Assembly: GCF_018130385.1 (NCBI RefSeq)
Contig: NZ_JAFCLU010000019.1
Coordinates: 1 to 64,000 of the forward strand
Length of the DNA stretch: 64,000 nt
Origin: Bradyrhizobium sp. AUGA SZCCT0283
GTDB taxonomy: Bacteria; Pseudomonadota; Alphaproteobacteria; Rhizobiales; Xanthobacteraceae
Direction of reading: 5' to 3'
The position numbers were made by a program, and so were the translations under genes. Numbering within the stretch: the stretch's first letter is position 1; each line of letters starts with the position of its first letter. Below the pieces are notes generated by a model. The model did no database searches, was not told the DNA's origin, and saw only the letters and a program-made list of their open reading frames with translations. This document shows, in pieces, positions 3,981 to 48,413 of the stretch.

Positions 3981-4056
3981 TGGTGAGCGCGGAGGGACTC
4001 GAACCCTCGACCCCATGATTAAAAGTCACGTGCTCTACCGCCTGAGCTACGCGCTC
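3981..4056 (-). tRNA. tRNA-Lys(UUU)
   Basis: Read on the minus strand this is a complete cloverleaf. The acceptor stem is GAGCGCG/CGCGCTC, followed by T8-A9, a D-stem GCTC, and an anticodon loop CTTTTAA with anticodon TTT. The T-arm is GAGGG-TTCGAGT-CCCTC, the discriminator base is A, and a genomically encoded CCA lies at 3981-3983. The 76-nt length including CCA is canonical. It decodes AAA/AAG lysine codons. Confidence 0.97.
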
Positions 4057-45902: not shown

Positions 45903-47099
45903 TCACGCTACTCTTCGTGCCGCACCCGCCTTGACCAAAATCGCATCAAGGCAATCGATCATCAGCGATATCTCCGCGCGCGTGACGTTGAGCGCCGGCA
46001 TGAAGCGCAGCGCATCGGGCTGCGGCGAGTTGATGAGCACGCCGTCCGCCAGCGCCTCGGCCACGATCGTGGCGCCGATTGGCAGCTTGAGATCGAGCGC
46101 GAGCAACAGGCCGCGGCCGCGCACCTCGCCAAGACCATGCCGCGCCGACAGTTTCTGCAACTCGCTTTCCAGGAACAGGCCGGCGTTCGCCACAGCTTTC
46201 AAAAATTCCGGCTTGGAAACCTGCTCGAGCACCGCAAGCCCTGCGGCGCACATCAGCGGATTGCCGTTGAAGGTGCCGCCCTGATCGCCGTGTTCGAAGC
46301 AGGACGCATGCTTGGTCGCGAGCAGGGCAGCCAGCGGCACGCCGCCGCCGATGCCCTTGCCGAGCGTCATGATGTCGGGCTCGATGCCGGCATGTTCGTA
46401 GTGGAACAGTTTTCCGGTCCGGCCCATGCCGGTCTGGATCTCGTCGACGATCAGCAGCAGGCCGTGCTCCTTGGTCAGCGCGCGCAGCTCCTTCAAGAAT
46501 TGATCGGTCGCCGGCCACACGCCGGCTTCGCCCTGGATCGGCTCCAGCATCACGGCGACCGTGTTGTCCGAGATCAGCGCCTTCACGGAATCGAGGTCGT
46601 TGAGCCGCGCTTTCCGGAAGCCTGATACTTTCGGCTCGAACAGCGGCTCGAACGCCTTTTTGCCCGATGCCGACATGGTGGCGAGCGTGCGGCCGTGAAA
46701 GCCGCCCTCGAAGGTAATGATTTCGAACGCGCCGTTCTTGTATTTCGCGCCGTATTTCCGCGCGAGCTTGATGGCGCCCTCATTGGCCTCCGCACCGGAA
46801 TTGGCGAAGAAAACCTGATCGAAGCAGCTTTTTTCGACCAACCCCTGCGCCAGCTTGAGGCTCGGACCGTTGTAGAAGGCGGGACTTGGCGTCAGCAGCC
46901 GGTTGGCCTGTGCGGCAAGCGCTTCCGCAACGGCAGGCGGCGAATGGCCGAGCGCGTTGACGGCCCAGCCCTGCACGAAGTCGAGATAGCGCTTGCGGGA
47001 GTCGTCCCAGAGGTAGGAGCCCGCACCGCGGACGAATACCACCGGCGGGCGAGCGGTAATCTCCATCAGCGCGTCGAACGGATGGGTGGCGTCAGTCAT
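45903..47099 (-). CDS. argD: acetylornithine transaminase (ArgD-type)
   Basis: A 398-residue PLP-dependent class-III aminotransferase. [53 protein letters not shown] and the Schiff-base lysine in [13 protein letters not shown] are all in place. Length and [11 protein letters not shown]-like motif ([12 protein letters not shown]) suit ArgD, which makes N-acetylornithine in arginine synthesis. A catabolic succinylornithine or ornithine specificity cannot be excluded, and no other arg gene is adjacent. AGAGGAG lies upstream of the ATG. An arginine-rich leader ORF and terminator precede it (47149-47329), supporting a biosynthetic, arginine-controlled role. Confidence 0.82.
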
Positions 47100-47148
47100 G
47101 TCGATCTCCTCTGGGTGGTGCTGGGATGAAAGGGCAGGCCGAAACGCA

Positions 47149-47180
47149 AGAAGGCCGCACTTTTGAGGGTGCGGCCTTCT
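47149..47180 (-). terminator. attenuator terminator hairpin before argD
   Basis: AGAAGGCCGCAC at 47149-47160 is the exact reverse complement of GTGCGGCCTTCT at 47169-47180, a 12-bp stem with an 8-base loop. On the minus strand it is followed by TGCGTTTCGG, so the U-tract is modest. It lies between the leader ORF stop (47205) and the argD start (47099), where an attenuator is expected. Confidence 0.7.
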
Positions 47181-47204
47181 CGAAAACGTGGCTGAACTAG
47201 TTGA

Positions 47205-47291
47205 TCAGCGTTGTCGTCGGACACGGCGCAACCCATCGTCGCTGGAGCGACGACGCAGGCAGGCGCGGCGGTTGGTCCGGTTCAGTTTCAT
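47205..47291 (-). CDS. arginine-rich leader peptide upstream of argD
   Basis: A 28-codon ORF, ATG at 47291 to TGA at 47205. The peptide starts MKLNRTNRRACLRRR and contains 11 arginines, at positions 5, 8, 9, 13, 14, 15, 22, 23, 25, 26 and 28. Codons 13-15 (CGT CGT CGC) and 17-19 can pair with each other as a hairpin. The ATG lies only 8 bases after a -10-like element, so the transcript should be leaderless or nearly so, as for rhizobial trpL. Ribosome stalling at Arg codons when charged tRNA-Arg is scarce would prevent formation of the downstream terminator. A full antiterminator was not identified; GTTGCGCC (codons 20-22) could pair imperfectly with GGCCGCAC. Confidence 0.7.
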   Translation of the reverse strand: MKLNRTNRRACLRRRSSDDGLRRVRRQR

Positions 47292-47299
47292 GGCGATGG

Positions 47300-47329
47300 C
47301 CCATACAGCCTGATGGCAGTGGATGTCAA
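47300..47329 (-). promoter_or_regulatory. promoter of the argD leader transcript
   Basis: On the minus strand TTGACA (47329-47324), an 18-base spacer and TATGGG (47305-47300) make a good sigma70-type promoter. The leader ATG begins 8 bases further on. The predicted start site is about 47293. Confidence 0.6.
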
Positions 47330-47365
47330 GACGGTACGCTTGACGGCACCGCCCCTACCGGCTCG

Positions 47366-48007
47366 TCAGGTCGCGCGCGGCACCTCCTCGGAATCCTTCT
47401 CGCCCCAATGCGCGTCGGCGATGGATGCATCGATCAGTTCGCCGCGCAGCAAGGCGAGCGGCGACTTGTAGTACAGCGCAACGTTGTGAAACGGATCCGT
47501 CAGGACCTTCCAGCCCCATATCAGCCCCGTCGGCACATCGCGAACGATGAACAGCTGGATCATGCGAAACAGCCCGCCTCCAATGCCAATCACGAGCCAG
47601 ACCGCTCCGACATGACGAATAAAGTCGAGCCGATCAGTTGGTGGCGCAAACACGCCGAACAAGGTCGGGAACACGAACAGCGTGAGGGGGGCAAGGCCCC
47701 AGACGACCAGCAAGACGATCTTGCGCTGCTGATTGTAACCGACCTTGACCGCCTCCTTGTATTCGTTGGTGACCTCGTTGACGTCGTCGTAGCCGTTCGG
47801 CTCGAAGAAGAAGTGTCCGGTCTGCCGCGTCAACATCGCGAGCCAGCCGACGAGGCCGGCCAGCGCGGCATCGGTGGACAGCAGCACATAGCAGCCAAGG
47901 AATATGATGGCGCTGATCAGGTGTAGCGTCTGATTAATCCGGCTTTGATGGTAGTAGCGGTAGTCGTCCCACCGCTGCGATCGCAGTGTTTCAGAAAAAC
48001 GGCTCAT
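47366..48007 (-). CDS. DUF962/Mpo1-like membrane protein
   Basis: Started at the second of two adjacent ATGs (48007; GGAG eight bases upstream), 213 residues. The N-terminal YHQSRINQTLHLISAIIF and the later GHFFFEPNGYD recall the histidine motifs of the Mpo1/YGL010w (DUF962) family, in which yeast Mpo1 is an iron-dependent dioxygenase for long-chain 2-hydroxy fatty acids. About four to five membrane helices are visible. The resemblance is by motif only. A FixK/FNR-like box lies about 210 bp upstream. Confidence 0.65.
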   Translation of the reverse strand: MSRFSETLRSQRWDDYRYYHQSRINQTLHLISAIIFLGCYVLLSTDAALAGLVGWLAMLTRQTGHFFFEPNGYDDVNEVTNEYKEAVKVGYNQQRKIVLLVVWGLAPLTLFVFPTLFGVFAPPTDRLDFIRHVGAVWLVIGIGGGLFRMIQLFIVRDVPTGLIWGWKVLTDPFHNVALYYKSPLALLRGELIDASIADAHWGEKDSEEVPRAT

Positions 48008-48413
48008 CATTCCCTCTCCAGGTTGAATGCGAGCCAGCCATAGGGCGAGTCCATGAATGGGGCATGACAACATGAAGTTGTCATGATGAGGGGGCGGGTG
48101 TCTGATGGGCTTGCGCCGCGCGTCGCGCCAACCGTCGCTGAATTTTCAGAGGCGCGAGTTCGTCGGTCTGGCGTCGACCGGCCGAGCGTTGCCCTGCACA
48201 TGTCGTGCGGGCATTGAGCTGGATCAAAAGCCCGACGGATGCCTCGGAAATCCCGCGAGGCGAATTGAACCGGCCGGACCGATCGTTCGCCAAGGGCAGC
48301 CGGTCCATCGCGGCAAATATCCATCGGTGCCGGAATTCATCGCGTTCGCGACGAGGCGATCGTCCATAAGGTGCCTGCATCGTCCTGACGGACGTGGACA
48401 TGGAGCGGATGCA
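48008..48413. other. intergenic region between the DUF962-like gene and rimO
   Basis: About 400 bases without a credible gene. Open frames exist on both strands but lack domains and start signals. A FixK/FNR-type dyad is at 48214-48227. Confidence 0.5.
48214..48227 (-). promoter_or_regulatory. FixK/FNR-type binding site candidate
   Basis: On the minus strand the site reads TTGATCCAGCTCAA, one base from the symmetrical TTGAT-N4-ATCAA consensus of the FNR/FixK family. It lies about 210 bp upstream of the DUF962-like gene start, rather far for direct activation unless transcription begins well upstream. Confidence 0.45.

Follow-up and report, generated by a model that had tools for sequence, protein, structure and literature searches.

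Is the short Arg-rich reading frame upstream of an argD gene of Bradyrhizobium sp. AUGA SZCCT0283 part of a switch setting the expression of that gene according to the supply of arginine? The region lies in a stretch of 64,000 nucleotides (positions 1 to 64,000 of contig NZ_JAFCLU010000019.1), called here the window. Ribosome-mediated attenuators are known for his, trp, leu, ilv, thr and phe leaders; arginine, to our knowledge, does not usually figure among the amino acids sensed by leader attenuation. From comparative and folding data we consider it very probable that the region acts on argD as an arginine-specific, ribosome-mediated transcription attenuator.

The argD leader and the arginine genes of the same genome

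The leader and argD are on the minus strand. An exact -35 box, TTGACA (47324-47329), is followed after 18 bases by a weak -10 box, TATGGG (47300-47305), in which TA is invariant in 13/13 sequences. Eight bases separate the latter from the ATG at 47291, which opens an Arg-rich ORF (47205-47291) of 28 codons, 11 of them for Arg; the product, MKLNRTNRRACLRRRSSDDGLRRVRRQR, contains RRR. The ORF reads as an earlier note on this DNA had described it. The same note had spoken of a good promoter: the -35 box is perfect and its spacing is kept in 81/84 related loci, but the -10 box is poor, and a consensus scan of the argD leader found no sigma-70 promoter. The 8-base distance to the -10 box suggests that the ORF is nearly or fully leaderless.

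The ORF is followed by a putative intrinsic terminator, a hairpin of 12 bp with an 8-base loop (47149-47180). The stem was announced as perfect, and is both perfect (AGAAGGCCGCAC/GTGCGGCCTTCT, 47180-47169 with 47160-47149) and conserved; the U-tract after it (TTGCGTTT, 47141-47148) is nonetheless weak, and a terminator scan called none at the argD leader. A ribosome-binding site, AGGAG (47106-47110), precedes argD (45903-47099). The 398-residue product is an acetylornithine aminotransferase, as the note had recognized, and belongs to the PRK03715 type (653.6 bits against NF002985/PRK03715, cut-off 568, E 8.4e-197). On its other side the leader is flanked by an Mpo1-like gene (47366-48073), whose match to Pfam PF06127 (23.9 bits) falls just below the cut-off of 24. 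The 211-nt leader region folds better than 200/200 shuffled sequences (z -3.16). ATG-to-stop readings of 20-40 codons number 344 in the window, nested starts being counted separately; 7 of them have at least 30% Arg, one is preceded by an exact TTGACA at 28-34 bases, and the argD leader ORF alone combines the two features.

Elsewhere in the genome there is an argD-argF operon. The ArgD heading this operon is the next-best ArgD-like protein, 44% identical to the one encoded downstream of the leader, so the latter is a second ArgD; the gene is a paralogue with a putative share in arginine supply. The closest named relatives of the window protein are the ArgD proteins of B. lablabi and B. algeriense (96%). 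Among argG, argJ, argC and argD-argF of the same genome, none has a leader comparable to that of the PRK03715-type argD. An ATG reading with RR is found upstream of argG and a TTG reading with RR upstream of argC, both without TTGACA; neither an RR reading nor TTGACA upstream of argJ; TTGACA and a hairpin upstream of argD-argF, where the RR reading is absent. The argD-argF upstream region (L002, about 1300-1400, in G000:C63) features, by eye, TTGACA-16-TAGAAT, a strong GC hairpin within about 10 bases, and a T-rich stretch. Hairpin and T-rich stretch lie right at the 5' end of the argD-argF transcript, where no Arg-rich ORF is found, and the hairpin may act as a further early terminator or protect the 5' end. 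Two argC-like stretches (L315, L316) adjoin at G000:C35:344522-346521, one of them with an in-frame TAG in the match.

Distribution of Arg-containing leaders upstream of argD

Alphaproteobacterial loci were fetched solely by ArgD similarity from the genus and family of the window (n=84). A PRK03715-type argD resides in 111/117 genomes of the genus; 73 of these 111 places were examined, together with 11 places from other ArgD searches. TTGACA, a spacer of 30-32 bases, ATG, an intact ORF of 28-30 codons with 8-12 Arg, and a GGCCGC/GCGGCC terminator are found in 81/84 loci. Conservation of ORF and hairpin upstream of argD in relatives was the check proposed in the earlier note, and it turned out in favor of the proposal; a conservation of this extent excludes a chance origin of the layout. 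The misses are L025, L165 and L202. The leader of L165 is cut by the contig end, and that of L025 differs and still contains Arg (MQYASTNARRRRRARRFSAGAWDMRTR). In L202 (1-293) the leader has been replaced by a transposase end (integrase core PF13683, E 1.6e-16), terminator and argD remain, and the locus is a natural leader knock-out. In a set of named loci overlapping the 84 (L234-L280), the canonical leader was found by script in 44/47; L237, missed by the script, also has this leader, with QRR instead of RRR, L277 has another Arg leader, and L261, on a contig as long as that of L202, has none. The records L247, L283 and L298 are titled Frankia, Bordetella parapertussis MAG, and Klebsiella pneumoniae MAG, and all contain a PRK03715-like argD. 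Some of these titles look wrong, as both ArgD (84%) and leader of L247 are Bradyrhizobium-like.

A search of 149 genomes with the leader DNA detected 13 argD loci and two coding sequences, L039 and L040; both lie within coding sequence and were rejected as leader copies. The R1 model of the leader has one strong copy in its own genome, other matches being weak (E of at least 0.0016), and the six strongest matches of a further scan are argD leaders of the genus of the window. Weaker matches extend to other families of the order, with E up to 0.01; eighteen of them (L211, L213-L225, L227, L230-L232) were discarded as leaders: by eye, ordinary terminators prevail, L217, L227 and L230 resemble coding sequence, and L221, flagged by script for a TTG reading with at least 6 Arg, is not leader-like.

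Removal of 4 identical sequences from the 81 conserved leaders left 77 distinct sequences, which were aligned. Every ORF has 28-30 codons and a TGA stop. Gap blocks inside the ORF columns, counted as blocks and not as independent events, all span three bases (72/72), with mixed lengths found 3' of the stop. By the numbering of L014 (29 codons), codons 5, 9, 13, 14, 23, 26 and 27 specify Arg in at least 76/77 leaders, codon 15 in 72/77. In the window, the putative main control codons are R13-R15 (CGT CGT CGC, 47247-47255; Arg in 76, 77 and 72 of 77 leaders), with R8-R9 as further candidates (47265-47270; Arg in 76/77 at codon 9, 45/77 at codon 8). Residues at codons 2-4, 7, 10-12 and 16 vary widely. 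No codon-position bias of the variation was found in the ORF of the 77 leaders (mean entropies 0.54, 0.58 and 0.59), so that its conservation is mostly at the RNA level, and Arg content and pairing are confounded. In 5/77 leaders codon 15 specifies His for Arg; the RNA pair holds there, changing from GC to AU in the hairpin over the Arg run.

Outside the alphaproteobacteria, a PRK03715 argD was detected in 128/150 genomes of family f66, whose proteins group with those of named Burkholderiaceae. The sample (n=78) was made up of 77 of the 128 f66 places, 28 top-scoring ones and 40 chosen to spread over genera among them, and of L049 (family f71). ATG leaders containing RRR were found by script in 59/78 loci and by eye in one more, where some letters are N. 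No leader was found in 18/78 loci, in about 11 of which the upstream gene ends, by eye, near argD. Several small-genome betaproteobacteria, among them L046, L047, L048, L050 and L164 (g190, with genome sizes near 2 Mb), have PRK03715 argD genes that come without an Arg leader. A typical beta leader, MNRIQSELRRRRSPLP, has TATTCT 7 bases 5' of the ATG and a GCCACGG/CCGUGGC stem with a U-run. Alpha and beta peptides share little except the in-frame Arg run. Among the more distant named loci (L281-L313) the leader was found by script in 19/33, including Azospira oryzae, Burkholderia dolosa, Caballeronia, Paraburkholderia and Trinickia; L281, L284, L290 and L312 are, by eye, weaker cases.

The argD leader is recognized by Rfam family RF02884 (BcKCsr7) in L041, L042, Burkholderia dolosa, Trinickia and Caballeronia. 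The threshold of the family (59 bits) is reached in L041, L042, L310, L305 and L296, and is not reached in the window, L014, L025, L043, L049, L277, L281 and L293. In the accessible text of PMC10987360, Bc_KC_sr7, the same as RIT34 and nc5U30, is an expressed transcript of 147 nt in B. cenocepacia J2315, and changes of RIT34 upon infection and peroxide are reported, arginine being absent from the conditions given there. The available part of PMC5688073 describes 82 5'UTRs yielding short transcripts through processing or attenuation. In L041, the span between the ATG and a point eight bases beyond the hairpin measures 156. From the match of the sequences, we read the listed sRNA as probably the terminated argD leader. 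No Rfam family, the known amino-acid leaders included, reaches its threshold at the argD leader of the window; the best leader family below threshold in 46900-47500 is Thr_leader (22.4 bits vs. 55). A tRNA gene (3984-4056, minus strand) is the only Rfam match at threshold in the window.

Competing RNA structures in the leader

Two structures make use of the 5' arm of the terminator. The antiterminator 5' strand GGGTTGCGCC (47225-47234) may pair with the arm sequence GGCCGCACCC (47167-47176), covariation being observed at one pair. The antiterminator middle (47191-47221) comprises TCCGA (47217-47221) and a GCTGA/TCAGC hairpin (47205-47209 with 47191-47195), inside which the leader stop codon sits. 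Further upstream, CGGAC (47275-47279) would pair with GTCCG (47218-47222) at the base of a long leader hairpin, as the two strands of an anti-antiterminator. In 10 alpha leaders folded with a ribosome masked at the Arg run, GGGU-GCGCC pairs with GG-CGC-ACCC of the terminator 5' arm; this antiterminator encloses further short helices and GCUGA/UCAGC, and forms before the terminator 3' arm exists.

In folds lacking the 3' arm, the antiterminator is found in 73/77 leaders with a ribosome stalled at the Arg run, vs. 31/77 without ribosome. Folded at full length, 77/77 leaders have the terminator as their minimum-energy form, with a stalled ribosome or not. Antitermination consequently requires that the antiterminator form first and persist, and the switch, if real, is decided by folding order. 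At least 8 of 10 arm bases are paired upstream in 66% of cases with the ribosome at codon 5, 94% at codon 9 and at the Arg run, 82% at four codons past the first Arg of the run, and 0% at the positions sampled from six codons past this Arg through the stop, a result in part geometric because everything up to the leading edge of the ribosome was masked. The energy gain of the alpha arm is 10.6 kcal/mol, vs. 5.2 for shuffled spacers (77 leaders); it is larger than in all 20 shuffles in 38/77 leaders, and 108/1540 shuffles reach the observed value.

The beta-side folding set of 76 was obtained from 99 loci by removing 19 without an automatic leader, L294, in which no terminator was found, and 3 identical sequences. 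The terminators have a median of 11 pairs and 7 U in the nine bases starting two before the stem end, U content having been one of the grounds for their selection. The antiterminator gain is hardly higher than in shuffles (6.6 vs. 5.0), exceeding all 20 shuffles in 7/76 leaders, and 496/1520 shuffles reach the observed value.

Covariation was analyzed in 56 sequences, after removing from the 77 leaders 18 in which the antiterminator strand is shifted or different, as well as 3 that trimming made identical to others. Antiterminator pair cells are kept at 97.2%, vs. 36-45% when the strand is slid by 1-3 columns, and double-change cells are 10, vs. 2.1 in shuffles. Antiterminator pairs with double changes are not in excess (2 vs. 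1.4 in shuffles): the observed numbers of double-changed pairs and extra pair types were reached by 199 and 218 of 500 shuffles, those for the terminator by 416 and 26 of 500. Antiterminator column 4 and arm column 73 form UA 40 times, CG 7, GU 2 and UG 2, with 4 unpaired and 1 gap; arm column 73 and terminator column 85 form AU 44 times, GC 8, UA 2 and GU 1, with 1 gap. Judged from the alignment, arm position 73 keeps pairing with both rival partners. For the 10 terminator pairs counted, 99.6% of the cells are kept, with double-sided changes at one pair. GCTGA/TCAGC pairs are kept and unvaried in 56/56 sequences. The five CGGAC/GUCCG pairs are kept in 77/77 leaders, with a single G-U change at each of the two outer pairs; covariation cannot test the base of this hairpin, as it is nearly invariant. 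When arms were swapped among leaders, the cognate arm was best for classes GCCC and AACC, tied for ACCU, and not best for ACCC, the largest class, UCCC and CCCC.

Proposed mechanism, alternative readings and related systems

The leader unites the components of an amino-acid attenuator in a conserved layout, with structures that are mutually exclusive and partly covarying. The ORF has a conserved run of control codons (11/28 Arg, with RRR); the downstream gene belongs to the same pathway (argD by NF002985, a paralogue of the argD of argD-argF); between them lies a conserved 12-bp hairpin as intrinsic terminator, with a weak U-tract in the alpha leaders; and, in these leaders, stalling favors an exclusive antiterminator, with the terminator favored in full-length folds. 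The amino-acid attenuation layout put forward in the earlier note is supported by conservation, by the competing antiterminator and by the presence of the same layout in betaproteobacteria. As predicted from the sequence, transcription would start at or just 5' of the leader AUG, and the leader would be translated. With ample Arg-tRNA, the ribosome would pass the Arg codons and reach the UGA, blocking the antiterminator, since the UGA lies inside it; the GGCCGCAC/GUGCGGCC hairpin would form, and RNA polymerase would halt about 145-150 nt downstream of the AUG. With scarce Arg-tRNA, the ribosome would stall at R5, R8-R9 or R13-R15 and disrupt the upstream hairpin; GGGUUGCGCC ... GCUGA would then pair with UCAGC ... 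GGCCGCACCC before the terminator 3' arm is made, and argD would be transcribed in response to the shortage of arginine.

The same RNA structures would also be acted upon by a stall of a different origin, if the nascent Arg-rich peptide, while in the exit tunnel, sensed a ligand such as free arginine or ornithine and its arrest set the RNA switch. This appears improbable, since residues besides Arg and a few positions vary widely (the variable codons include 2-4, 7, 10-12 and 16), and alpha and beta peptides coincide in little but the Arg run. Quite improbable, too, is an independent gene for a small RNA or small protein, for which the place before argD would be secondary and the Arg codons a by-product of RNA pairing. 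Rfam does catalogue the beta element as an sRNA gene, short transcripts were detected (PMC10987360, accessible text), and the alpha ORF lacks a codon-position bias; yet the leader DNA search matches argD loci only, besides two chance matches in coding sequence, the R1 model gives one strong copy in its own genome, and alpha and beta leaders keep the in-frame Arg run in otherwise different sequence. The hairpin could finally be merely the terminator of the upstream Mpo1-like gene, with the ORF a by-product of GC-rich sequence: chance Arg-rich short readings do occur in the window (7/344), and similar GGCCGC/GCGGCC hairpins end other genes. The probability of this is next to nil, because promoter box, spacing, ATG, frame and stop are conserved in 81/84 loci, and an RRR leader is present in another bacterial class.

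In a tree of 53 ArgD proteins the Bradyrhizobium-type clade (13 rows) joins L281 and L284 (support 99/96), proteins from MAGs labelled Betaproteobacteria. The upstream readings of these loci are METQFTSVLRRHSASRVTRSCGRRQS and MIPIGTALRRSGATTARFVRGKRR (RR only), both with GGCCGC-type terminators. In the antiterminator test the L281 value is reached by 2/20 shuffles, a weak result, and the L284 value by 16/20, a negative one. The ArgD of L025, a member of the family of the window, groups elsewhere, with an Acetobacteraceae MAG protein (support 98/94). As the tree joins the Bradyrhizobium clade to beta proteins with Arg-containing leaders, it suggests that argD and its putative attenuator were transferred together between classes, with the MAG labels a caveat and the tree having neither direction nor root. 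A wider proposal is that the family extends over alpha- and betaproteobacteria, and perhaps gammaproteobacteria too, has passed from class to class with argD, and in addition has a terminated product acting in trans, in the manner of rnTrpL/peTrpL. The product would be an RNA of about 145 nt with a highly basic peptide of 28 residues, and 'Burkholderia sRNA 7' would be its beta counterpart. Taken as a whole, we hold this proposal to be unlikely.

No report of an arginine leader attenuator for argD was found in the literature searched (titles and abstract openings, most subscription journals lying outside), and the accessible parts of PMC10987360 and PMC5688073 contain no mention of arginine attenuation. 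The mechanism is textbook; within the literature searched, neither arginine as the sensed amino acid nor this leader family has a precedent. If the attenuator reading is true, arginine joins the amino acids sensed by bacterial leader-peptide attenuation, bradyrhizobia and Burkholderiaceae have a repressor-independent arginine control of argD, a catalogued sRNA is explained as a cis-acting switch, and a gene has seemingly crossed bacterial classes along with its attenuator.

Amino-acid attenuators and the argD leader have in common a short ORF in which codons for the amino acid of the pathway form a run, an intrinsic terminator, a competing antiterminator and a biosynthesis gene; the argD leader differs in that it would sense arginine, and in being below every Rfam leader threshold. 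The fungal arginine attenuator peptide (AAP) and the enterobacterial SpeFL mediate uORF-based responses to arginine or ornithine. They resemble the argD leader in this respect, but both are arrest peptides, whereas the counting of a codon run is the better reading for the argD leader. RF02884 (BcKCsr7/RIT34/nc5U30) corresponds to the argD leader itself in L041, L042, Burkholderia dolosa, Trinickia and Caballeronia, but is catalogued as an sRNA gene, and the alpha leaders tested (window, L014, L025, L277) fall below its threshold. The leader of Sinorhizobium meliloti trpL has, as the argD leader probably has, a leaderless ORF; its attenuator RNA, rnTrpL, also exists as a small RNA, for which a function in trans is reported in the accessible part of PMC10117765. 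The two differ in amino acid and target, tryptophan and trpE for rnTrpL, arginine and argD for the leader described here.
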